Positions 9,072 to 22,064 of a stretch of DNA of 64,000 bases are shown here, piece after piece. Source of the stretch: Ensifer sp. IC3342 (GTDB taxonomy: Bacteria > Pseudomonadota > Alphaproteobacteria > Rhizobiales > Rhizobiaceae); assembly GCF_020193655.1 (NCBI RefSeq), contig NZ_JADYVE010000005.1:124001-188000 (forward strand), written 5' to 3'. Numbering within the stretch: the stretch's first letter is position 1; each line of letters begins with the position of its first letter. The position numbers and the translations under genes are program-made. The notes beneath the pieces were generated by a model. That model worked only from the letters and a program-made list of their open reading frames with translations. It did no database searches and had not been told where the DNA came from.

Positions 9072-10835
9072 TTACTCCGCGGCTTGTTTCTTGAGGGTTT
9101 GGGCGGACAACATCGTTCGGGCGGCGCGCTTCGCCCGGATCGCTTCGAGATGTTCGGGAGCGGGGCTGGCACCGCCTTCGTAGGCCTCCAGGAAGTCCAG
9201 GAGCTCCTCGCGGTAGGCGTAATAGTCGGGGTGCGACAGGAGCTCCTTGCGCGAGCGAGGCCGCGGCAGGTTCACTTCCATTATATTGCCGATCCGTGCG
9301 TTCGGGCCGTTCGACATCATCACCACCCGGTCCGCGAGCAGGATCGCCTCGTCGACGTCATGCGTGACGCAGATTGCCGTCACCTGGGTCCGCTTCCACA
9401 CGTCCATCAGCACTTCCTGCAGCTCCCAGCGGGTGAGGCTGTCGAGCATGCCGAATGGTTCGTCGAGGAGGAGCAGTTTCGGCGACAGCGCGAACGCCCG
9501 GGCGATGCCGACGCGCTGTTTCATGCCGTTCGACAGGTCCGCCGCAAGCCGGTGCATCGCATCGCCGAGGCCTACGCGCTGCAGGTAATATTCGACGACG
9601 TCGCGGCGCTCGGCCGGTGTCGCGTCGGGGTAGACCCGGTCGACGCCGAGCGCGACGTTTTCGCGGGCGGTCAACCACGGAAGCAGGGAAGGGGCCTGGA
9701 AAACCACCGCCCGATCTGGACCGGCGCCGGAAATTTCCCGTCCGTCGAGGATGATGCCGCCCGACGAGATCGGGTTGAGGCCCGCCATCATCGAAAGAAC
9801 GGTGGACTTGCCGCATCCCGAGTGGCCGATGATCGAGATGAATTCGCCCCTGTTCATCTTGAGGTTGAAGCCGTCGACCACCGTCAGCGGACCTTTCGGC
9901 GTCGGATAGACCTTTCGGACCTCGAAAAACTCGACGTAGCTCTTCTCGATCGCGGAGCGCGCCTTTCGGGCATAGGCGTCCGGCAGCTTGGTGCCGGTGA
10001 GCTTCTGCGTGATCGGCACGACGTTGGGCAAGGCGACGGCGCCGCTTTCCGCGGTACTCCGTCCGGCGCCCAGGTCCATCAGATATTCGGTGACGGCGCC
10101 GCGAAGGCGGATGAACTCGGCGTTTGAGTTCATTTCCGCGCGGTCGCGCGGGCGCGGCAGGTTCACCTCGAAGCTCGGACCTAGCGAGGCATTCGGGCCG
10201 GGCGTCAAGGGAATAATCCTGTCGGCAAGCAGGATCGCCTCGTCCACGTCGTTGGTGATGAGGATGATGGTCTTCTTTTCCTTCGACGAGATCTCGGCGA
10301 ATTCGTCCTGCAGCTTCGAGCGGGTGAGCGCGTCGAGTGCCGAGAGCGGTTCGTCGAGCAGGAGCACGTCCGGCCGCATCGCGAGCGCTCTTGCCACGGC
10401 CACGCGTTGACGCATGCCACCCGAGAGCTCCGCAGGCCGGCGCTCCGTCGCGTGGGACAGGCCGACCATCTCGATATAGTACTGAACGATGCTCGCCCTT
10501 TCCGCCTTGCTCTTGGCGGAATGCACCGCATCGACGGCAAGCGCGACATTGGCGCGGACCGAGAGCCAGGGCATCAGCGAATAGGATTGGAAGACGACAC
10601 CGCGCTCTGGCCCGGGACCCGACACTTCCTTGTCGCGGAAGAGCACCGCGCCGCGATCCGGCATCGCCAGGCCGGCGAGGAGGGAAATCAGCGTCGATTT
10701 GCCCGAGCCGGAAAAACCGACGATGGCAATGAATTCGCCTTCCTCGACCTTGAGGTTGACGCCCGAAAGGACGTCATTGCGCGATTTGCCCTCACCGAAT
10801 GACTTCGAGACATCGCTCAATTGGAGAATTGCCAC
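9072..10835 (-). CDS. nrtC: Nitrate ABC transporter ATP-binding protein with two fused ATPase domains
   Basis: A 587-aa protein with two complete NrtD/TauB-type ATPase domains in tandem. The first (about 1-250) has [18 protein letters not shown] and [11 protein letters not shown]. The second (about 295-555) has [18 protein letters not shown] and [11 protein letters not shown]. This differs from cyanobacterial NrtC, where one ATPase is fused to a substrate-binding domain. The two domains likely form an intramolecular ATPase pair for NrtB. Translation starts at GTG 10835 with AGGAGG six bases upstream; that site overlaps the TAG stop of nrtB, suggesting translational coupling. Confidence 0.93.
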
Positions 10836-10844
10836 GCGCGCCTC

Positions 10845-11918
10845 CTACCGGTTCGACGAGAAGGTGAAGGCGGACTGGAGGGCATACATGACCCGATCCA
10901 GAACGAAGCCGATGATGCCGATCGTGAGCACCGCGACCATGATGCGGGCGAGCGAGTCGGAGGAACCGTTCTGGAACTCGTCCCATACGAACTTTCCGAG
11001 GCCCGGATTCTGAGCGAGCATCTCTGCTGCGATCAGCACCATCCAGCCCACACCCAGCGACAGCCGGAGCCCGGTGAAGATCAACGGAAGGGCGGAAGGC
11101 AGAACCAGCTTGCGGATCGTCGTCGCGGTCGAAAGCTGCAGCACTTTGCCGACATTCACCAGGTCCTTGTCGATCGAAGCGACGCCGAGCGCCGTGTTGA
11201 TCAGCGTCGGCCACAGCGAACAGAGGGTCACGGTCACCGCCGAGATCACCAGCGACTTCGGCAGCATGGTCGACGGATCGACATAAAGCGCCGAGACGAT
11301 CATCGTCACGATCGGCAGCCATGCCAGCGGTGAGACGGGCTTGAAGATCTGGATCAGCGGGTTGATAGCACCGTTGATCGTCTTGGAGAGACCCGAGGCG
11401 ATTCCGAGCGGCACGGCGACCAGCGTTGCAATCACGAAGCCGAGCCCGACTGTCATCAGCGACGTCGTGATCTGGTCGATATAGGTCGGCTTGCCGGTGA
11501 AGACGCGATGCTTCACCTGGTCGGCCTTGCCCTCGGCAACGAGCTTGGAGTTGCGCTCATCCTGCCGGGCATAGAATGCAGCGGCCTTGTGCCGTTCTGC
11601 AAAGTGGTCCTCAAGGAGCACGCTCGCCTGGTCGAAAACGGCCGCCGGCCCCGGAATGGCGCCGAGCGAGGTTTGAACCTTCGGTGCAAGAACGCCCCAG
11701 AGCGCGATGAAGCACAGGATGCCGGCAAGGGGTACAAGCAGCGCCTTGCGAATCTCAGACATCTGCTCGGCGACATTGTCGCCGGCCGCAATGCGCAGGA
11801 TTGGGGTCACCCAGCCGAGGCCAAGCACATTGAGCCAGCCGGCGGCTTTGTTGATCCGCTGAAACAGACGCTCTCGTCGCGCGAGTTTCGGGTCAGCCAC
11901 GGTGATCGCTTGAGTCAT
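10845..11918 (-). CDS. nrtB: Nitrate ABC transporter permease
   Basis: A 357-aa inner-membrane permease. An N-terminal segment near residues 80-105 is followed by a periplasmic linker and a binding-protein-dependent transport domain with five or six helices. The linker (about 110-160) is longer than in sulfonate permeases and fits the nitrate/bicarbonate NrtB group. It pairs with the fused ATPase downstream and NrtA upstream to import nitrate. The gap to nrtA is 71 bp. The start at 11918 has only a weak GATGAGAC upstream. Confidence 0.92.
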   Translation of the reverse strand: MTQAITVADPKLARRERLFQRINKAAGWLNVLGLGWVTPILRIAAGDNVAEQMSEIRKALLVPLAGILCFIALWGVLAPKVQTSLGAIPGPAAVFDQASVLLEDHFAERHKAAAFYARQDERNSKLVAEGKADQVKHRVFTGKPTYIDQITTSLMTVGLGFVIATLVAVPLGIASGLSKTINGAINPLIQIFKPVSPLAWLPIVTMIVSALYVDPSTMLPKSLVISAVTVTLCSLWPTLINTALGVASIDKDLVNVGKVLQLSTATTIRKLVLPSALPLIFTGLRLSLGVGWMVLIAAEMLAQNPGLGKFVWDEFQNGSSDSLARIMVAVLTIGIIGFVLDRVMYALQSAFTFSSNR

Positions 11919-11989
11919 GGATTTGTCTCATCTGTTGAAATTTTCGTAGAGAACAGGCGGCCTCGGGTTCCGCGCCGCCAGCCCGATGT

Positions 11990-13387
11990 TCAGCCGCCAA
12001 CGACATCCGAACCGGATATAGTCTGTTCGTTCTTCAGCCCGATCTTGAGGGAGTCGATGTAGGCGTTCGGCGCCTTGGCATCGAAGGTGACGCCGTCGAT
12101 GAAGTCGGAGGTAGGTCCCCTGTAGCCGTCGGTGCCGAAGGGGAAGTCGCCCTTGTCGGCCTTGCCCTCCTCGACCAGCATCTCTGCCGCCTTCATGTAG
12201 ATATCAGGCAGGTAGACGGACTTTGCCGTTTCTGCGTACCAGGCGTCGTCCTTGTGCTCGGCGATCTGACCCCAGCGGCGCATCTGCGTCAGGTACCAGA
12301 TGGCGTCGGAATAGAAGGGATAGGTCGCGTTGTGGCGGAAGAACACGTTGAAGTCGGGAACGTCGCGCTTGTCGCCCCGCTCGTATTCGAAGGTGCCGGT
12401 CATCGAGTTCGCGATCACGTCCGCGTCGGCGCCGACATATTCGCTGCGCGACAGGATTTCGACGGCCTCGGTCCTGTTGGCGTTGTTGTTTTCGTCCAGC
12501 CATTTGGCGGCACGAATGAGCGCCTTTGTCAGCGCAAGCGTCGTGTTCGGGTATTTCTCGGTGAATTCCTTCGTCAGCCCGAAGACCTTCTCCGGATTGT
12601 TCTTCCATATTTCATAGTCGGTCACCACCGGCACGCCGATGCCCTTGAAGACCGCGGCCTGGTTCCAGGGCTCGCCGACGCTGTAGCCGACGATGGTGCC
12701 GGCTTCGAGGGTCGCCGGCATCTGCGGCGGCGGCGTCACGGAAAGGAGTGCATCCGCCCTGATTTGTCCCGTGACGTTTTCCGGCGAATAGAATCCCGGA
12801 TGGATGCCACCGGCGGCGAGCCAGTAGCGAAGCTCGTAATTGTGGGTGGAAACCGGAAACACCATGCCGAGATTGAACGGCTTGCCCTCGGCCTTGAATG
12901 CATCGACGACGGGCTTCAGCGCGTCGGCCTTGATGGGGTGGACGGGTTTGCCGTCCTCGCCGAGCGGAATATTCTCCTTCATCATCGCCCAGACGTCATT
13001 CGAGACGGTGATGCCGTTGCCGTTCAGGTCCATGGAGAAGGGTGTGACGATATGCGCCTTGGTGCCGAAGCCGATGGTGGCGGCAAGCGGCTGACCGGCG
13101 AGCATGTGCGCGCCGTCCAGTTCACCGGTGATTACGCGGTCGAGCAGCACCTTCCAGTTGGCCTGCGGTTCGAGCGTGACGAACAGCCCCTCTTCCTCGA
13201 AGAAGCCCTGCTCATAGGCGATCGCGAGAGGCGCCATGTCGGTGAGCTTGATGAAGCCGAGCTTGAGTTCGTCCTTCTCGGGCACCAGCATCTCGGCAGA
13301 TGCGAAAGAGCCGGCGCCGACATAGAGTGCGGCCGCCCAGGCGGCGAGCGAACACTTCGCGAATTTTCCAGTGGAAGGCCTGTTCAT
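11990..13387 (-). CDS. nrtA: Nitrate ABC transporter substrate-binding protein
   Basis: A 465-aa periplasmic nitrate-binding protein of the NrtA/CmpA family. Residues 1-31 form a signal peptide (hydrophobic core, cleavage likely after SFASA). The mature part has the NrtA signatures [17 protein letters not shown] and [13 protein letters not shown]. It is the first gene of the operon; the start at 13387 has AGGAG upstream. Its roughly 190-nt leader contains the regulatory elements annotated separately. It is paralogous to the cytoplasmic sensor NasS encoded just upstream. Confidence 0.95.
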
Positions 13388-13440
13388 GCTTTTCTCCTGT
13401 ATGCCGGCGATGGGAGGCTCGCCTGCGGTTGCGACGTGGC

Positions 13441-13515
13441 AAAAAAGAAAAAGGCTGCCAAACCGCGATCAAACGCTCTGCCTCGTTCAGAGCGCGTTCC
13501 CGGTTTGGCAGCCTT
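13441..13515 (-). terminator. Intrinsic terminator in the nrtA leader
   Basis: A perfect 15-bp inverted repeat, AAGGCTGCCAAACCG (13451-13465) with its complement at 13501-13515, encloses a second 7-bp stem (CGCTCTG 13474-13480 / CAGAGCG 13488-13494). On the minus strand the hairpin is followed directly by a T-rich run (complement of 13441-13450). It lies 50 bp before the nrtA start and inside its transcript, so it should stop transcription unless antitermination occurs. Confidence 0.88.
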
Positions 13516-13522
13516 GCCTTCT

Positions 13523-13570
13523 GCGCCCTTCGTTGGACGCCGATTATTTCGAGCGGACCCTCAACGGCCC
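13523..13570 (-). promoter_or_regulatory. Putative NasT (ANTAR) dual-hairpin antitermination site
   Basis: In the minus-strand RNA, hairpin 1 (13570-13555) is GGGCC-GUUGAG-GGUCC and hairpin 2 (13540-13523) is GCGUCC-AACGAA-GGGCGC. Both have six-base loops. Hairpin 2 has A at loop position 1 and G at position 4, the known ANTAR recognition pattern; hairpin 1 has only the G4. They sit between the predicted transcription start and the terminator, 14 nt apart. NasT, encoded just upstream, is an ANTAR protein. The function is inferred from this arrangement. Confidence 0.62.
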
Positions 13571-13584
13571 TTCGCTTTCCTTGA

Positions 13585-13600
13585 TGCAGGAACCGTGCCA
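13585..13600 (-). promoter_or_regulatory. Putative sigma-54 promoter of the nrtA operon
   Basis: The minus strand reads TGGCACGGTTCCTGCA, which matches the -24/-12 consensus (TGGCACG, four bases, TTGCA) with one mismatch and the correct GG-to-GC spacing. The predicted start is near 13574, four bases before hairpin 1 of the leader. This fits NtrC/RpoN nitrogen control. I could not recognise a clear NtrC enhancer upstream. Confidence 0.65.
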
Positions 13601-13736
13601 GTTTCCTGAACGGGCAGATTCTCATGATTTTTCAGGATTGGAGCCAAACGGCCAGTCCGCTCGTGAGAGGCGAATAAGCTGTTGCTTGAACAAATTTTGC
13701 GCAGTGCACAATAATCGAGCAGTGCGCCGAGCGGGG

Positions 13737-14957
13737 TCAGCGCTGGCTCGCCAGATAGTCGTCGAGCCGATCCGGGTCGAAGATCCGGCCGTCGAAAAAG
13801 CCGTCTGGGCCCAGAACGAGCCCCTTTTCCGAAGCGCCCACCGGCGCCGCGACGGTCAGAGCGCCCTCGACCTTCATGTTGGCGCCGGGCATCGGCGCGG
13901 CAATCGGCTTCAGCGCCTGCCGGTAGATGTCGGGCCGGTAGGTGTCACGTGCGCGCTGGGCCAGCGCCGCCGAGTGTGATGTGTGTCCCCACCTCACCAT
14001 CTGGCTGTAGAACCAGAGGGCGTGGCTCTGCCAGGGAAAAGTCGCTCCCTTCGCGTGTGGGACAAAGAACTCGGGAATGTCGCCGGCGGCGCCGTCGCCG
14101 AGCGTCAGTCGGCCCGTGAGGATCGGCATCAGCGCTTTACGCGGCAGGTCGAGATAGGCGGGCGTGCTCATCAGTGCCGCGAGTTCTTCGTGATTTGCGC
14201 TTTCGCCGCACCACATCGAGCTTCGGTAGAGCGCGCGCAGCAGGGCATCCAGCACGGGGCGGTTTTCGGAGGCGAAGCGGGCCGAAACACCGAGCACCTT
14301 TTCCGGGCTCAGCCGCCAGATCGACGCCTTTGTGGTGGCAATGCGCCCGGCATGGCGTGCGACCGCGACACTGTTCCACGGTTCGCCGACGCAGAAGCCG
14401 TCGATCGCGCCCGTCGACAGCGCATCGGCCATCAGCGGCGGGGGAACCACGACAATCTCGACGTGGCTTTCCGGATCGATGCCGCAGCCAGCGAGCCAAT
14501 AGCGCAGTTCGTAGTTATGGCCGGAGAAAGGATGGACGACGGCAAAGCGCAGTGGCGGCTCGCCCGCGTCGCGGCGGCGTTCGACGACGCGCCTCAACCC
14601 CGCGCCGTTGGCGCTCGGGTCGGTGTCGGGCCCGGCACCGTCGGCGACCATGCGGTCCCAAAGGTCCCGCGAGACTGTCACCGCATTGCCGCCGAGTCCG
14701 AGCGCAAAGGGCGCCACGAGGTCCAGCGAGAGGGGCGTGAGGCCTAGATTGGAAGCAATCGGCATTGGCGCCAGCATGTGGGCCGCCTGGAAATGACCGA
14801 CGGCGATCCGATCGCGAATATTGGCCCAGGAGGTTTCCCGGACGAGCTGCAGCGACAGACCCTCGTCGGTGACGAAGCCCTTTTCGCTGGCGGCGATCAG
14901 CACGGCGCTGTCGAAGAGAGGCATGAAGCCGAGGGTGATGTCGGCGGTGGCAGCCAT
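13737..14957 (-). CDS. nasS: Nitrate/nitrite sensor protein NasS
   Basis: A 406-aa NrtA-like protein without a signal peptide: it begins directly with the domain (ITLGFMPLFDSAVLIAASEKGF region), so it stays in the cytoplasm. Shared NrtA signatures include FQAAHMLAPMPIASNLG and DGFCVGEPWNSVA. In the known NasS-NasT systems NasS binds and silences NasT until nitrate or nitrite is present. Its ATG at 14957 directly follows the nasT stop, so the pair is co-translated. The nrtA control region lies immediately downstream. Confidence 0.9.
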   Translation of the reverse strand: MAATADITLGFMPLFDSAVLIAASEKGFVTDEGLSLQLVRETSWANIRDRIAVGHFQAAHMLAPMPIASNLGLTPLSLDLVAPFALGLGGNAVTVSRDLWDRMVADGAGPDTDPSANGAGLRRVVERRRDAGEPPLRFAVVHPFSGHNYELRYWLAGCGIDPESHVEIVVVPPPLMADALSTGAIDGFCVGEPWNSVAVARHAGRIATTKASIWRLSPEKVLGVSARFASENRPVLDALLRALYRSSMWCGESANHEELAALMSTPAYLDLPRKALMPILTGRLTLGDGAAGDIPEFFVPHAKGATFPWQSHALWFYSQMVRWGHTSHSAALAQRARDTYRPDIYRQALKPIAAPMPGANMKVEGALTVAAPVGASEKGLVLGPDGFFDGRIFDPDRLDDYLASQR

Positions 14958-15551
14958 TTACAGGTCCTCCAGCAATCCCGCCGCCAGCACCAGGCTCTGT
15001 GCGATTTCGGCTATCTTGCGGTTCTGGTTCATCGCGGTCGTGCGCAGGAGCTTGTAGGCCTCTTCTTCGCTGATGCCGCGCGATTTCATCAGGATGCCCT
15101 TGGCCCGGTCGATCACCTTGCGGTCGGCAAGCTCGCTGCGCGCTTCCGCCAACTCGCGCTCCATGCGTGAAAAGGCGTTGAAACGGCTGATCGCCATATC
15201 GAGTATCGACTTCACGCGCTCCTGACGCAGTCCGTCGACGACATAGGCCGAAACGCCGGCGTCGATCGCCGCTTCGATCATGCTGCTGTCGGATCGATCA
15301 ACGAACATGGCGATCGGGCGCTTTACCGAGCGGGAGAGCTGGAACATGCTCTCCAGCAAATCGCGATTGGGATTTTCGAGATCGATGACGATCACATCCG
15401 GTTGCAGCCGTTCGATCACCCGTCCGACGCCATGGACATCGTGCACGATGCTCACACGGCTGTGGCCGGCATCGCGCAAGCCTTCCTCGATGATCGAGGC
15501 GCGGATGGCGTTCTCGTCAATCACAAGAATGGTCAGGTCGCGGCGGGTCAT
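14958..15551 (-). CDS. nasT: ANTAR-domain response regulator NasT, antiterminator
   Basis: A 197-aa protein with an N-terminal receiver-like domain (TILVIDENAIRASIIEEGL, DVIVIDLENPN) and a C-terminal three-helix ANTAR RNA-binding domain at about 130-190 (DRAKGILMKSRGISEEEAYKLLRTTAM, abbreviated by key residues). It should bind the two-hairpin leader of nrtA and prevent termination when released by NasS. It is probably transcribed from the AT-rich region upstream (15560-15690), where TGCAT-GGA-ATGCA at 15612-15624 is a small palindrome of unknown use. Confidence 0.92.
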   Translation of the reverse strand: MTRRDLTILVIDENAIRASIIEEGLRDAGHSRVSIVHDVHGVGRVIERLQPDVIVIDLENPNRDLLESMFQLSRSVKRPIAMFVDRSDSSMIEAAIDAGVSAYVVDGLRQERVKSILDMAISRFNAFSRMERELAEARSELADRKVIDRAKGILMKSRGISEEEAYKLLRTTAMNQNRKIAEIAQSLVLAAGLLEDL

Positions 15552-16950: not shown

Positions 16951-17020
16951 CGATCTAACTCTTTGAAATGACGCAATTCCTGACGGAAAACCGTTACACA
17001 CTTTTCCCGGAATCGCTTTA
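16951..17020 (+). repeat. Rhizobial intergenic palindromic element
   Basis: The segment from GATCTAACTCTTTG through ACGCAATTCC to GGAATCGCTTTAG has an imperfect inverted repeat GCAATTCC (16973-16980) / GGAATCGC (17009-17016). I recognise it from memory as a multicopy element of Sinorhizobium/Rhizobium spacers; only one copy is visible here. It provides the stop codon of the 78-aa gene on the other strand. Confidence 0.5.
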
Positions 17021-17254
17021 GCAGCGGCCCAAACTGCCGAGCGCCATCAGGTCGACTGTCGGAAGAACGTTCTTGTCGGTGATGTATTCGACTTCCTGGA
17101 GCAGGGAGGCCAAAGCCAGTTCCAGGCAATATTGCACCCCTTCGACGTTCAACGTCTTGGCGGAGTCTCGCGCGTAGCTGACGAGGCGGGCAAGGGCCAG
17201 AAGTTCCTTCTCCTTGTCTTCCACGTCTATAGGTAACTTAATGGATTGCTGCAT
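17018..17254 (-). CDS. Small hypothetical protein downstream of TfuA
   Basis: A 78-aa acidic protein that is probably all helical: an EDKEKELLALARLVS-like heptad region, then GVQYCLELALASLLQEVEYI, ending LGSLGRC. It has two cysteines (Cys43 and the last residue). The start ATG 17254 is preceded by GGGG seven bases upstream. I do not recognise the family. It follows tfuA on the same strand after 121 bp that hold three GTCACGC repeats, so it may have its own promoter. Being a small, conserved-looking protein next to YcaO-TfuA, it could be a substrate, partner or unrelated. Its stop lies inside a repeat element. Confidence 0.65.
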   Translation of the reverse strand: MQQSIKLPIDVEDKEKELLALARLVSYARDSAKTLNVEGVQYCLELALASLLQEVEYITDKNVLPTVDLMALGSLGRC

Positions 17255-17309
17255 GATTTTCCCCAGTGCCACTCGGGGGTCACTGCGACCCGCTTTCGTC
17301 AGCAATATA

Positions 17310-17347
17310 GCGTGACTTCCGGGCCGTGGGCGTGACACGAGCGTGAC
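17310..17347. repeat. Three direct GCGTGAC repeats upstream of the 78-aa gene
   Basis: GCGTGAC occurs at 17310-17316, 17330-17336 and 17341-17347, about 60-90 bp before the start of the 78-aa gene and just after the tfuA stop. The array could be a regulator-binding site. No known operator was matched. Confidence 0.4.
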
Positions 17348-17375
17348 ACACGCTGAATGGGAAATGCAACCGAAC

Positions 17376-18095
17376 CTACGTCTCAGGTTGATTAAGCAAA
17401 ACCTTCCACATACTTGTCGAATTGAACGCCCAGCTAGGCCTTTCGTCGCGCCGTTCGTCCGGCTGAGCCCGAACCGCGTCGAAGAGCGCGAGGGCGTCCG
17501 CGCGCTTCTGGTCGACCATCTCCTGCTGCAGCCGTGCCACCAAGGCGCCACGATCGCGATCCGCCCGAAGGTCTGCCTCGGCAACGATCGCTGCCCATGT
17601 ACGTCGCTTGTAGAATATCCCCCCCGCTGCCGCCTCGATCCGGGCCGTATCCGCGGCGGTGATCGCGCCGGCATGCCTGAGGCGTGCAAGCGTCGCGTGC
17701 ACATTGACGAGCGGGACCGTCAAGGGCGCATGGCCGAGCTCGGCGGGAGCGTGAAGCAGGGCCACATCCGAGTCGTCTGCCAGCTCGCCCGCGGCATACC
17801 GGCGATATATTTCCCCGATCCCGACCATTCCGAAGGGCGCACATTCGGCGGCGCGCAAGGCCCCCATGCTCGCCGCCCCGAAGACGCGTACGCCTTGCGA
17901 AAGGGCGAACAGTATCTCCTTGTGCCAGACCGGCGCCACATGTTCGAAATTGCCGTCGACAAGGCCGATGATCGTCGCGCCGGCGCGTACGGCGCGCAAG
18001 ATGTCTCCCTGCATCGCCGGCGGCCGGACCGCGAAGGCTGCACCGGCGCGTTCGTGCGCATCGGGGACGGTCGGACCGACGAAGACGATCTTCAC
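17376..18095 (-). CDS. tfuA: TfuA-like protein
   Basis: A 239-aa TfuA-core protein, the usual partner of a YcaO enzyme. Conserved family features are visible at residues 48-60 (GNFEHVAPVWHKE), 70-84 (GVRVFGAASMGALRAAE) and 94-97 (GEIY), followed by DDSD. In methanogens the YcaO-TfuA pair installs a backbone thioamide in McrA, and TfuA is thought to deliver sulfide. In rhizobia TfuA was first noted in trifolitoxin production. Its start overlaps the ycaO stop by 4 bp (ATGA), so the pair is translationally coupled. The role here is inferred from the family; the substrate is unknown. Confidence 0.92.
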   Translation of the reverse strand: MKIVFVGPTVPDAHERAGAAFAVRPPAMQGDILRAVRAGATIIGLVDGNFEHVAPVWHKEILFALSQGVRVFGAASMGALRAAECAPFGMVGIGEIYRRYAAGELADDSDVALLHAPAELGHAPLTVPLVNVHATLARLRHAGAITAADTARIEAAAGGIFYKRRTWAAIVAEADLRADRDRGALVARLQQEMVDQKRADALALFDAVRAQPDERRDERPSWAFNSTSMWKVLLNQPET

Positions 18096-19285
18096 GCCGC
18101 CTCCAGTGCCCAGGAGAGCGCCCGCGTGCCGAAGCGGCGCTTGCGCTCGCCTTCCGGGTTCTCCAGTTCCGGAACGAACACTTTGACAACTGCAAAGGGC
18201 AGGTCATCGCCAAGCAATGGCACGGCGACGGCCGGGCCGATGCCGACGTCGCGCAGCCGCTGCAGGACGAAAGACAAGAGCGCGTCCTGTCCTCCCGCCT
18301 CTGTGGCGTGGACGCGTGCCGGCTCTTGCGGCACAGCCTCGAACAGTTTTTGCGTCAGCTGCGGCAGAGGGCGAACGAACGTCTCGGGATAGACGTCGTC
18401 GCGCGCGCCGCTGATATAGGTGAGCCTCGATTGGGCCGCCTCAGTCACGGCGCGGATTGCCGCTCTCACCGCATTCGGATGCGCCCCGTGCCCGACCGTG
18501 ACGTGGTGGAAAAGCGGCGCCTTCGCCGACAGAATGTCTTTCCCGGCTACGACGGCGGTGAAGCACGGTATGCCGACATCGCTGGTGATGTCGAAAAGGC
18601 GCAGCTCCAGATCGGCCGCGGCAATCTTCCCTGCCATGGCACTGAGCACCGGATCACCGAGCGCCTGCGGTGCAACGCAGCTTCTAAGCCTCGAGGCTAA
18701 TGGCGTGATGCGCCACAGCACCTCCGCGTCGCGTTCGATCCGTTCCAGGAGCCCATGTAGCACCGCTTCGGTTTCGTTGTTGCCGGAGGCGAGGCCATCG
18801 GATGATTGCCAGTATCGGCAGTTCTCCACCGTTCTGTCGAGCAGGGCGGCCTCCAGCGGAACCCATGTCGGCGCCCCTCCGTCGAGGTTGCGGCCGAGAA
18901 CCCACCGGGTCGGCTCGTCGTCCGCAAGGTCCGGCCGGCCGCTGGCGATCAACCCCGGCAGAGACAGGGCCTGATTGCCTTCGGCCAACAGGTTGCTGCG
19001 GGTCGCAACTCTCGCCCGCACACGCGGCGCGCATGCAACGGCGCGCTCGAGCGCCTCCATGGCCGCCGAGACTTTTGCGTCGATGTCCGTTATGCCCTTG
19101 CCTTGATTGATGACCAGTGACTTCGAGTTCGGAGACACGGCATTCCAGACCGGAATGCCGATGCAATCCAGCCCGGTCAGGCGCGCAAGCCGTGTGATGC
19201 CGAACTCCGGCAAAAGAGATTCGATCCGGCCGAAGGTCGTTTCGGCGGCGCAGACCCGATCGGAATAGAGAATTGAGCCGGACAT
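18092..19285 (-). CDS. YcaO-domain protein, TfuA-associated
   Basis: A 397-aa ATP-dependent backbone-modifying enzyme family member. YcaO ATP/Mg motifs are present: QGKG at 61-64, SAAMEALER at 73-81, GLASGNN near 164 and LLERIERDA near 179-187. There is no proline-rich C-terminus of the cyclodehydratase type; it ends SWALEAA. No E1/Ocin-ThiF partner is present, so TfuA is the only likely partner. This favours thioamidation-like chemistry over azoline formation (inference). The start at 19285 fits the family N-terminus (SDRVC). An earlier Met at 19339 lies 6 bp after the 72-aa gene; neither has a clear ribosome-binding site. Confidence 0.9.
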   Translation of the reverse strand: MSGSILYSDRVCAAETTFGRIESLLPEFGITRLARLTGLDCIGIPVWNAVSPNSKSLVINQGKGITDIDAKVSAAMEALERAVACAPRVRARVATRSNLLAEGNQALSLPGLIASGRPDLADDEPTRWVLGRNLDGGAPTWVPLEAALLDRTVENCRYWQSSDGLASGNNETEAVLHGLLERIERDAEVLWRITPLASRLRSCVAPQALGDPVLSAMAGKIAAADLELRLFDITSDVGIPCFTAVVAGKDILSAKAPLFHHVTVGHGAHPNAVRAAIRAVTEAAQSRLTYISGARDDVYPETFVRPLPQLTQKLFEAVPQEPARVHATEAGGQDALLSFVLQRLRDVGIGPAVAVPLLGDDLPFAVVKVFVPELENPEGERKRRFGTRALSWALEAA

Positions 19286-19345
19286 GGCTTTAGGAGACGC
19301 GTGGGCGGCACCCCTTTTGGCCTGCCGCCCGTCGCGCATGGCCGG

Positions 19346-19564
19346 CTAGCCGTCCAGGAAGCCGCCGAAAACGGCGTCGGCGCTACTTGCCGTAGCTGCA
19401 AGATTGACGGTCTTGACGACCGTGGCGCCGGCCTTGCGCAATGCGTCGGCGTCGGCCAGCGCGCCCTGCGTGGGTGGATCGATCCTGGTGACTGTCCCCG
19501 CCTTGAGATCCGCAAGCCACAAATGATCCTCGCCGGCAATGCCGAAAACAACAACCTCAGCCAT
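19346..19564 (-). CDS. 72-residue cysteine-free small protein, candidate partner or substrate of YcaO-TfuA
   Basis: A 72-aa protein starting MAEVVVFGIA, with alternating hydrophobic strands at the N-terminus, a DPPTQG turn mid-way and an alanine-rich second half ending AVFGGFLDG. It has no cysteine and only two serines. An AGAGGGG site six bases before ATG 19564 argues that it is translated. It lies 35 bp after the BTAD regulator gene and directly before ycaO. The position suggests a RiPP-like precursor or an accessory protein. There is no double-glycine leader cleavage site that I would call, and I do not recognise the family. Confidence 0.72.
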   Translation of the reverse strand: MAEVVVFGIAGEDHLWLADLKAGTVTRIDPPTQGALADADALRKAGATVVKTVNLAATASSADAVFGGFLDG

Positions 19565-19599
19565 TACTTACCCCTCTTGCTGTCGCGCAGGATTGCGCC

Positions 19600-21468
19600 T
19601 CAAAAACCCGCCTTCTTCAAGCCCTCGCGGTAAAGCTCCCTATGCCATTCCTCGCGGATGGGCACGATCGCCATCCACCGGTCGAGATCGAAATCCGGAT
19701 GGACATCGAGTGTCTTACGCACGAACTGGCGCGCCTTTCTGCGGTCGCCGAGCATGCCCCAGCTCGCCGCCGACAGCCGGTCGGCCGGTGTCCGATCCCG
19801 CATCCGATCGATGTAGGCGAGCGCCTGTTCGTAGTGGCCGAGAGAGTAGCTGGCGCCGGCGGCCGTCCAGAAATATTCGTCCGGAGCGATCGGATTGAGG
19901 TCGATCGCCGCCTCGATCTTCTGCAGGCCCTCTCCGGGACGGGAAGCCTGCACGAGGGTGTCGGCGTAGCTGGCGATGACATTGGCATACTGCGGGCTCA
20001 GCTCTTCCGCCCGGTCGTGGAATTCGACGCTTTCGTCGAATTCGCGGAGGTAGAGCTTGACGACGCCGAGCTCCCTGTAGCCGGAGGCGAGCGTCTCGTC
20101 CGCGGCCACGGCCTCGCGCGCATGGCTTTCGGCGAGCGTCAACAGTTCGCGATCGCCCCGCGCCGTCAGCAGCCATTCGACGAAATAGCTTCGAGCAAGC
20201 CCGCTCATGGCGGGGGCGAAGTCCCTCTGGGCGCTAAGCGCTTCGCGGAAGCTCTTGCGCGCCCGGCGGATCTCGGGAAGATTGAGATGCTTGAGATACC
20301 GCTGGCCGAGGAGGTAGCTGCGGTAGGACTCGCCATTGCGTTCGTAGGCGTTGCGGGCGGCTTCGTTCTGTTCGACCTGGCTTGCGATCGCAGAAGCGAT
20401 CCGATGCGCAATGCCCCTGCGCGACTGCATCAGACCGTCGCCGACAAGATTGAATCGGTCGGCCCAGATGACCTCGTCGCTTGCGAAGAAGATCAGTTGG
20501 GCAAAGAGGCTCTGGCGGTCACCCTCGTCGGTCAATCGCGTGTCGAGGATATAGCTGATGGAGTGCCGTTCGTAGGTGTTTGCCTTGTCGGACTGAAGGC
20601 CGATCTGCGCCGCGGTATAGGGCGCGATGACACTGACAGACCGAAGGGCGCAGAGGCCGATCGTTACGTCCTCGATGAGCGAACTTGCAAAGATCGCCGC
20701 GGCGGTGTGCGCTCGTTCGGAGTTCGGCGGCAGCAGCACGAGTCGCGGTGGCTTCCTCTGGTGATCGTCGTCCCTGGCGAGGATCTCGACGGGCGCGGAC
20801 GGCTGGTTGCCGATGATTGGCAAAGACCGGCTGACACTGTCGAAGATGACCTGCGCGTCACGGTGCTGTCCTTCCGACTCCAGCGCACTCTTCAGGACTT
20901 TGCGGACTTCCTCGTCCGACGGATTGCGTTCGAGCAATCGCATTGCCGCCGACTTGAGAAGTTCGCGATGCTTGCCCGCGGCGGCGGGCGCCGCGGCAAG
21001 CAGGCTTTCCCTGAGCAGGGACATATGCGTCTCCCGCTGGCGGCCAATCCAGGCATCGAGCGCCTTGCCGTGCGATTTCGTGTCCTTCAGGAAATCGTCG
21101 CGCAGCACGGTGGCAATGCGGCAGAAGCGAGGCACGGTATCGCCGCCGTCGTCGGTCACGGCATCCAGGTCGCTCGTCAAGGTTCCGGGGTTGAGCAGGA
21201 TCGACGACTGCGAAAAGGTCAGAAAGGTTCGGCCGAGCTCCATCTGGTGCGCGGTGATGCGGGAGATTGTCTTGCGCAGGTTGACATAGGCCTGGCTGGG
21301 CTCGACCCCGTCCCAGAGCAGCCTGGCAGTTTCCGCCCGGGATTGCTCGCGATAGCCGTTGGCAATCGCGAGACACAGGATGAGCAGACCCTTCTCGGGG
21401 AAGGCGACTTCGCGGCCCGCTTCGTTAAGCAGCCGCAATCGTCCCAGAGTCTGCAACCTGTAGGTCAT
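19600..21468 (-). CDS. BTAD/TPR transcriptional regulator (SARP-like) of the YcaO-TfuA cluster
   Basis: A 622-aa protein. The N-terminal winged-helix part (about 1-85: LGRLRLL ... FPEKGLLILCLAI ... YVNLRKTISRI) and a bacterial transcriptional activation domain (about 100-215) are followed by a CadC/adenylate-cyclase-associated region (VLLPPN ... LIEDVTIGL, about 245-370) and C-terminal TPR repeats (about 385-600). SARP-type proteins activate specialised-metabolite clusters by binding direct repeats. The start 21468 has GAGGGGG five bases upstream. The next gene starts 35 bp downstream, so it is likely co-transcribed with the 72-aa gene, ycaO and tfuA. The ligand is unknown. Confidence 0.85.
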   Translation of the reverse strand: MTYRLQTLGRLRLLNEAGREVAFPEKGLLILCLAIANGYREQSRAETARLLWDGVEPSQAYVNLRKTISRITAHQMELGRTFLTFSQSSILLNPGTLTSDLDAVTDDGGDTVPRFCRIATVLRDDFLKDTKSHGKALDAWIGRQRETHMSLLRESLLAAAPAAAGKHRELLKSAAMRLLERNPSDEEVRKVLKSALESEGQHRDAQVIFDSVSRSLPIIGNQPSAPVEILARDDDHQRKPPRLVLLPPNSERAHTAAAIFASSLIEDVTIGLCALRSVSVIAPYTAAQIGLQSDKANTYERHSISYILDTRLTDEGDRQSLFAQLIFFASDEVIWADRFNLVGDGLMQSRRGIAHRIASAIASQVEQNEAARNAYERNGESYRSYLLGQRYLKHLNLPEIRRARKSFREALSAQRDFAPAMSGLARSYFVEWLLTARGDRELLTLAESHAREAVAADETLASGYRELGVVKLYLREFDESVEFHDRAEELSPQYANVIASYADTLVQASRPGEGLQKIEAAIDLNPIAPDEYFWTAAGASYSLGHYEQALAYIDRMRDRTPADRLSAASWGMLGDRRKARQFVRKTLDVHPDFDLDRWMAIVPIREEWHRELYREGLKKAGF

Positions 21469-21605: not shown

Positions 21606-22064
21606 CTAGCCGTGCAGAGGCTCTGTGCGACGCGCTCCAGAGGCGACACCCGTCGACTCCGCATCCGGTGTCTGGGCCATGGCGGCAACGAGCGAGATGA
21701 TCTTCTTACGCAACACCGGATCGGCAATCTTCAGGAAGGCCCTGTTGAGCGCAATGCCTTCCTTCGAAGCTACGAAAGAGGAAATCTCGTTCGATTCATG
21801 CATGTCGCCCGCGCTGTCTCGTCCCGACGGCTTGTCATCTTCGCGTTGGAAAAAGAAGCTCGGGTGGACGCCCAGGATATCGGCAATCGCCTGCAGCCGG
21901 CTCGCGCCGATGCGGTTTGTGCCCTTTTCGTACTTCTGTACCTGCTGGAACGTGATGCCCAGGCCATCGGCCAGCTTTTCCTGGCTCAGACCGACCATCA
22001 GTCTGCGCATTCTGACGCGAGAACCGACGAAGGTGTCTATCGGGTTTGGATCCTTCTTATTCAT
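21606..22064 (-). CDS. XRE-family transcriptional regulator (PraR-like)
   Basis: A 152-aa DNA-binding protein with an HTH_3 domain at about 15-70 (MVGLSQEKLADGLG, ITFQQVQKYEKGTNRIG, SFFF). It resembles the rhizobial PraR/quorum-repressor type, in which a conserved HTH is followed by a variable acidic linker (about 75-95) and a C-terminal helix. It lies upstream of the BTAD regulator gene, separated by the repeat, on the same strand. A role in controlling the YcaO-TfuA genes is possible but only positional. A frame overlapping it on the plus strand is a shadow. Confidence 0.9.
   Translation of the reverse strand: MNKKDPNPIDTFVGSRVRMRRLMVGLSQEKLADGLGITFQQVQKYEKGTNRIGASRLQAIADILGVHPSFFFQREDDKPSGRDSAGDMHESNEISSFVASKEGIALNRAFLKIADPVLRKKIISLVAAMAQTPDAESTGVASGARRTEPLHG

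Follow-up and report, generated by a model that had tools for sequence, protein, structure and literature searches.

The 64,000-nucleotide window analysed here, positions 124,001 to 188,000 of contig NZ_JADYVE010000005.1 of Ensifer sp. IC3342, carries five consecutive genes on one strand: a SARP-type regulator with a C-terminal tetratricopeptide repeat (TPR) domain, a gene for a 72-aa protein (pep72), ycaO, tfuA and a gene for a 78-aa protein (pep78). In our reading, to which we assign a probability of roughly 45%, these genes form a regulatory module of the kind seen in ribosomally synthesized and post-translationally modified peptides (RiPPs), where a thioamidated peptide derived from pep72 would be sensed by the TPR/SARP regulator, which then would turn on pep78. 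It resembles a circuit for internal signalling more than a factory for antibiotics. We establish here the anatomy of the module, its conservation and the sequence of a putative operator in front of pep78. The gene order and common strand, reported earlier from the DNA letters alone (the sequence-only reading), were confirmed, with gaps of 35, 60, −4 and 121 bp. An alternative, longer ycaO frame starting at 19339 is possible.

The two enzymes point to the chemistry. The closest solved chain of YcaO is MJ1094 (6pe3, E 2.2e-32) and that of TfuA is 6xp8 (E 1.9e-27). Among NCBIfam models, YcaO is best matched by TIGR03266, the McrA thioamidation YcaO (E 3.5e-57), and TfuA matches NF033432 (E 1.7e-52), both below the curated cut-offs. 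The adjacent YcaO and TfuA that characterise thioamidated RiPPs are both present. Judged by these enzyme families, the modification of pep72 is probably a thioamide. The pep72 protein itself is very probably the substrate, because the number of cores in its family varies from one to many, as in the precursors of thiovarsolin, whose thioamide needs nothing beyond precursor, YcaO and TfuA.

The pep72 protein has the layout of a RiPP precursor, with a leader, a C-terminal core and, in some relatives, core copies. Its N-terminus (about aa 1–45) is predicted to fold into a three-strand meander and a helix (predicted local distance difference test, pLDDT, 85–92) and is followed at the C-terminus by the core AVFGGFLDG. 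Several regions of the family are constrained, including the N-terminus and the segment ahead of the tail. An alignment was made of 58 of the 64 pep72 matches to a hidden Markov model (HMM); the six left out were L064, L089 and four odd or over-long matches (L078 and the second ones of L077, L092 and L093), and two of these six contain Cys. In the aligned core, Gly68 is found in 53/58 and Asp or Glu at position 71 in 56/58 members, and a residue at or beside Gly68 is a candidate thioamide site. Ser61, immediately ahead of the core, is present in 46/58. A loose core motif, drafted after the alignment had been inspected, matches 55/58 members, and the core sequence differs among lineages. Six of the 58 members carry 2–4 tandem copies of a 7-aa core, for example SGGFMDV-SGGFMDT. 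Two loci have longer repeat tails. L092 (7350–8036) contains a 228-aa frame with units of the SERAHSAGP type and L142 (4147–4515) four units of the RSDxSDRAFSF type, and at both a further pep72-like gene with a single core lies alongside.

The sequence-only reading had argued that the lack of Cys in the companion protein speaks against thiazoles and is compatible with a thioamide. The family supports a thioamide over a thiazole: Cys is lacking in the window protein as well as in all 58 aligned members, and the tandem cores are RiPP-like. The Cys, Ser or Thr residues required for cyclisation in linear azole-containing peptides and thiazole/oxazole-modified microcins are not a feature of the core, given that Cys occurs in 0/58 and that none of Cys, Ser and Thr is invariant in the tandem unit. 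To be set against this are Ser61 just before the core and the presence of both Ser and Cys in distant second precursors. Neither a cyclodehydratase partner nor a dehydrogenase was recognised by eye in the families shared over 61 loci, which were not searched singly. These loci comprise the window and 60 fetched loci, 59 of them chosen for pep72 and one for the second ycaO of the window's own genome.

To describe the distribution of the module, 394 Rhizobiaceae genomes were searched with the 72-aa protein, which proved to belong to a widespread family; it was found in 0/384 sampled Alphaproteobacteria outside the Rhizobiaceae. Named carriers among the best 80 of 115 relatives belong to Sinorhizobium, Ensifer, Shinella, Rhizobium (R. 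johnstonii 3841), Pararhizobium, Agrobacterium cavarae and Hoeflea. TfuA is present in 66/66 genomes with pep72 at E<=1e-3 (73 pep72 matches), compared with 123/394 overall; the Fisher p of 5e-41 is overstated, since the genomes are related. The regulator, pep72, ycaO, tfuA and pep78 mostly keep their order and strand over the 61 loci. The regulator, ycaO, tfuA and pep78 are all detected by plain tblastn in 35/61, pep78 is detected in 50 loci when an HMM is used, and a regulator lies ahead of pep72 in 80/80 named loci. Both small genes look real, because nonsynonymous divergence (dN) is far below synonymous divergence (dS) and because order and strand are kept in most loci examined. For pep72, dN is 0.013–0.065 and dS 0.18–0.31 in six pairwise comparisons, and for pep78 the single comparison gave 0.023 and 0.180. 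A small gene for a probable precursor is thus co-conserved with the enzymes, as expected for a RiPP.

This co-conservation is confined to one part of the TfuA family. In a TfuA tree with 108 entries, all pep72-linked TfuA proteins fall into a single clade of 67 (support 100/95). Within it, 51 have pep72 at the locus (a label that includes L141, L142, L148 and L149, where the match came from an HMM alone), 5 are relocated tfuA genes and 11 lack pep72, while none of the 41 entries outside the clade has it. The sequence-only reading had let its proposal of a dedicated substrate depend on the small proteins being present at most related ycaO-tfuA loci. Inside the clade this is what we found, and the idea of a dedicated small substrate is well supported. 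Pooled over all rhizobial TfuA it does not hold, with pep72 within 5 kb of only 67 of the 150 TfuA matches listed (there are at least 150). This neighbourhood count used 80 pep72 matches, made up of those down to E 0.0025, with one second copy in G260 omitted, and of four weaker matches picked by hand (G358, G311, G212, G069). Of the 83 TfuA loci with no pep72 inside 5 kb, 61 were looked at, namely L036 and 60 fetched loci.

Variant loci were observed within the clade. The relocated tfuA genes come from genomes whose ycaO-pep72 locus is without tfuA, and because they cluster on the tree with the TfuA pair of the window (100/96), TfuA probably acts in trans there. In five same-genus genomes (L106, L107, L108, L114 and L116), a tfuA without a nearby ycaO groups with that of the window on the tree. 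Nine of the 11 clade members lacking pep72 have another small protein in the slot between the TPR regulator and ycaO. These are frames of 140–198 aa that look alike by eye in six loci (L135, L139, L140, L146, L112 and L133) and frames of 42–65 aa ending in NIVHA(V/L)(R/K)FR in three (L147, L151 and L154); several of these loci have a pep78-like gene. The remaining two have lost the regulator together with pep72. The genome of the window also has a second ycaO-tfuA pair (L036, C38, 7082–8844), which belongs to a different TfuA clade, lacks pep72 and has relatives in many Rhizobiaceae loci.

The regulator has a predicted site of action at pep78. Ahead of the −10 box of pep78 lies a direct repeat with an 11-bp period, a putative site that agrees with the form of SARP operators. 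The operator score is 15–16 of 16 at all 50 pep78 genes, and the best of 1000 mononucleotide shuffles reached 14. In separately fetched named loci with pep78, some of whose genomes overlap the first set, the score is 15–16 in 53/57 and 14 in the other four. A uniform test of 400 bp upstream gave best scores of 15–16 for pep78 (41/41), 10–13 for regulators (60/60) and 11–13 for ycaO (53/53), so that a SARP-type operator was found upstream of 0/60 regulators and 0/53 ycaO genes. A −10-like hexamer (at least 4/6 matches to TATAAT) follows the operator at a distance of exactly 20 or 21 bp in 37/50 loci; 500 shuffles gave a mean of 3.1 and a maximum of 11. In the window's own genome, three places resemble the single exact copy with 3 mismatches, and the reversed control has 1 match. 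Among 30 genomes of the genus, 27 contain the exact operator, with 30 sites in total and 27 of them at pep78, compared with 0 for the reversed control. In two genus genomes (L269, L270), a perfect TGCAACGC direct repeat was observed away from pep78; that of L270 precedes a small frame that by eye resembles a DNA-binding excisionase.

These sequence patterns make it highly probable that the regulator acts at the pep78 operator, and pep78 is likely to be its single target. The sequence-only reading had named the SARP-like protein an activator. A role in activating the biosynthetic genes is not supported, since the only site found is at pep78, and the regulator does not appear to activate its own operon. 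For the same reason, pep78 looks like a regulated output and not like a second substrate. The pep78 protein has two Cys and a variable C-terminal tail. In an alignment of 48 of the 50 pep78 proteins (without L049 and L052), the last residue is always C, Q, H or N (19, 13, 11 and 5 cases).

The half-sites of the operator are TGTCACGC or TGCAACGC across loci, and two loci score as TGTAACG. We compared operator type with the regulator sequence in 35 of 48 loci typed as TGTCACG or TGCAACG. Four of 622 columns separate the two types perfectly, and two of these, columns 66 (K/Q to S) and 69, lie in the predicted recognition helix (post hoc p 0.007). This statistic is weak, supportive and not proof, because the operator type needs only 1–2 switches on the regulator tree.

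The assignment of the regulator to the SARP family relies on its orthologues and on a predicted model, in which a winged helix-turn-helix (wHTH) is followed by BTAD-like helices. The BTAD domain named in the sequence-only reading is found in 5 of 44 aligned orthologues (44 of 54 regulators; best E 3.5e-12) and is unmatched in the window protein itself, where a domain search returned TPR repeats only. Trans_reg_C is matched in 3 and TPR_2 in 40 of the aligned orthologues. An AlphaFold2 model (mean pLDDT 85.7) places the wHTH at aa 1–100, BTAD-like helices at 101–212, an alpha/beta domain at 241–341 and a C-terminal TPR superhelix at 346–620. Positions with at least 90% conservation number 61/277 in the TPR domain, 21/105 in the alpha/beta domain, 10/100 in the wHTH and 3/112 in the BTAD-like part, which makes the TPR domain the best conserved part by a narrow margin only. 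In a record of S. meliloti pSymB, a homologue of the regulator is annotated as adenylate cyclase.

The regulator and pep72 also occur as a pair without ycaO and tfuA. We found such pairs in eight genomes examined, that of the window included, and all eight hold ycaO-tfuA-pep78 elsewhere. The pair in the window's own genome (L037, C49, 5703–7872) has no ycaO, tfuA or operator nearby, and each of its members is 44% identical to its counterpart in the window. In two of these genomes (L144 and L137), little is left of the regulator and pep72 at the ycaO-tfuA-pep78 locus. When L144 is aligned with R. johnstonii 3841, both flanks match and the gap between them takes out almost the whole of pep72 and the regulator beyond approximately its first 58 codons; L137 retains two regulator fragments and no pep72. 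The four pair regulators included in the alignment all have K66 and therefore could serve the same operator. A pep78-like gene is present at pair loci L078 and L166.

Taken together, we propose the following mechanism. YcaO and TfuA would turn a backbone amide of the pep72 core, located at or beside its conserved Gly, into a thioamide, as inferred from the enzyme families, while the folded leader would hold a precursor that in some relatives has 2–4 core copies. The modified core, perhaps cut free, may then be the ligand of the TPR domain of the regulator encoded directly upstream, a step to which we give somewhat less than an even chance. The sequence suggests that the regulator would bind the direct repeat of 11-bp period in front of the −10 box of pep78 and activate only pep78, the presumed output of the circuit. 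Regulator-pep72 pairs located elsewhere might feed the same enzymes and the same target in trans.

Several observations weigh against this proposal. The product, its mass shift and the binding of the regulator to the operator are all predictions from sequence. TPR domains have many binding partners, and the alpha/beta domain of the regulator is almost as conserved as its TPR domain. By eye, the module shows neither a protease nor an exporter nor a signal peptide, which leaves the release of the pep72 core unexplained. Six same-genus loci lack tfuA in its usual place, and the distant second precursors of L142, L141 and L093 contain Cys. As for the operator, its score was defined after the sites in L036–L095 had been viewed, the few switches of operator type on the regulator tree count here as well, the repeat is absent from 21/22 pair-only loci, and pep78-like genes of neighbouring TfuA groups score at least 15 in 5/8 cases and 12–14 in the others. 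Finally, no known relative of pep78 was found.

The same data were weighed under other explanations. The module could be an ordinary thioamidated RiPP metabolite cluster, in which pep72 would give rise to a secreted bioactive peptide, the SARP protein would regulate the pathway and pep78 would be an immunity or accessory protein. YcaO-TfuA RiPPs are a known class in which multi-core precursors occur, SARPs usually activate biosynthetic clusters (PMC10972967), and the pep72 core varies among lineages. We nevertheless consider this rather unlikely, since the operator lies at pep78 and upstream of none of the 60 regulators or 53 ycaO genes, since the commonest other neighbour family, an ABC-type ATPase by eye, occurs in only 15/61 loci (genes of at least 80 aa, module and XRE genes excluded), and since enzyme-less regulator-pep72 pairs fit a metabolite poorly. 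It is improbable that the 72-aa protein, once modified, stays unprocessed and assists the TPR protein as a co-regulator in its whole, folded form. The predicted N-terminal fold, the constraint on several pep72 regions and the lack of a conserved protease or exporter family, as seen by eye, would agree with such a role, but the tandem cores and the long repeat tails of L092 and L142 are better suited to cores that are released.

Still less probable is that pep78 or another protein is the true substrate of YcaO-TfuA and that pep72 is an adaptor. The variable tail of pep78, its restricted last residue and its linkage to most loci would be compatible with this; on the other hand, pep78 is served by a separate promoter with an operator, no repeated cores were seen in it by eye, and most regulator-pep72 pairs lack it, while pep72 follows a regulator at all 80 named loci. 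We also see very little chance that YcaO introduces another backbone change, such as an oxazoline or amidine. Azolines, amidines and thioamides are all made within the YcaO superfamily (PMC13063428), and Ser61 lies just before the core. This is opposed by the TfuA partner that accompanies the clade, by MJ1094 as the closest solved YcaO and the McrA thioamidation model as the best NCBIfam match, though below its cut-off, and by the tandem core unit with no invariant Cys, Ser or Thr.

Known systems share parts of this module. In the thiovarsolin cluster varA-varY-varT of Streptomyces varsoviensis, precursor, YcaO and TfuA are reported to be sufficient for the thioamide, and relatives of the precursor have none to five core repeats (PMC6511847). 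A small precursor with repeated cores beside ycaO and tfuA is common to both; thiovarsolin differs in its APR cores, its precursor and its further enzymes, and the available thiovarsolin description contains no TPR-SARP regulator-peptide unit and no single-target operator (PMC6511847). The sequence-only reading had suspected an undescribed kind of system, an idea that is not supported, as YcaO-TfuA RiPPs with small precursors are already known (PMC6511847, PMC8120280). YcaO-TfuA clusters are in fact known in bulk from rhizobia: more than 500 TfuA-related RiPP clusters have been assigned to Rhizobium, and the antiSMASH 'TfuA-related' clusters of Proteobacteria are of the same class as the module described here (PMC8120280). 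The main text of that source does not mention SARP, tetratricopeptide or adenylate cyclase, and the pep72 family may sit unnamed in its supplementary lists (PMC8120280). Our literature search returned nothing on the pep72 precursor family, on the operator of pep78, on a regulator with this one target or on the trans pairs, nor a product or role for the abundant rhizobial YcaO-TfuA clusters. Compared with thioamidation of McrA in methanogens, the YcaO-TfuA pair is shared and the closest solved YcaO is methanogen MJ1094, but the substrate there is a large enzyme and here a small neighbouring gene.

The operator of SARPs is a direct repeat, classically of 11-bp units, near the −35 region, and large SARPs can end in TPR (PMC10972967). 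The regulator shares the wHTH and the BTAD with this family, and a direct repeat of such a form is present at pep78, its predicted target. Unlike large SARPs as covered in that source, it is alphaproteobacterial, has an alpha/beta domain in the place of NB-ARC, and its predicted site lies away from the biosynthetic genes (PMC10972967). The RRNPP and RRNPPA systems described from Firmicutes, in turn, pair secreted peptides with receptors 250–500 aa long, and some RRNPP propeptides hold several pheromones (PMC10075063, PMC11343458). As in these systems, a TPR regulator directly adjoins a small peptide gene. In contrast, the regulator has 622 aa and thus exceeds the RRNPP range, modification enzymes are encoded in the operon, and no secretion tag is evident on pep72 by eye, no signal-peptide program having been run. 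Because of the receptor length and the description of RRNPP for Firmicutes, we do not file the module as RRNPP and regard it only as possibly working in a similar way. Our most specific version, a Gram-negative peptide-sensing circuit that is RRNPP-like with a modified pheromone, where a thioamidated ribosomal peptide would be the ligand of an adjacent TPR-SARP regulator controlling one gene and extra pairs would act in trans, is put forward tentatively and is more doubtful than the ligand role of the peptide itself.

These results equip one large YcaO-TfuA clade with a defined precursor family, a residue that is a candidate for modification, a cis-regulatory site and one gene that can serve as reporter, so that the function of rhizobial thioamide peptides becomes testable. 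If the peptide is indeed the ligand of the regulator, TPR-peptide signalling would extend to Gram-negatives and backbone thioamides would gain a regulatory role.

Table 1. Genes and sequence elements of the module, in window coordinates
Feature	Position	Strand	Remarks
XRE-family HTH regulator, upstream neighbour of the SARP-type regulator gene	21606..22064	-	HTH_3 E 2.2e-14
SARP-type regulator gene	19600..21468	-	622 aa
pep72 (72-aa gene, probable precursor)	19346..19564	-	
ycaO (ATP-dependent backbone-activating enzyme)	18092..19285	-	397 aa; PF02624 E 6.8e-59
tfuA	17376..18095	-	GTG start; 239 aa; overlaps ycaO by 4 bp; PF07812 E 3.5e-44
putative operator TGTCACGC-TCG-TGTCACGC, 11-bp direct repeat	17330..17348	-	only exact copy in the 7.42-Mb genome
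-10 element TATATT	17304..17309	-	20 bp downstream of the operator
pep78 (78-aa gene)	17018..17254	-	small helical protein; own operator-bearing promoter

The XRE-family gene next to the regulator is a possible sixth member of the module. Homologues were called in 31/61 loci by a greedy caller that missed the window's own copy, and the XRE family is large in rhizobia. Further along the window, positions 9072–15551 hold what we take, by eye, to be a tandem-ATPase ATP-binding cassette protein, a permease and two substrate-binding-like proteins, resembling nitrate-type transport, together with an ANTAR-like regulator.

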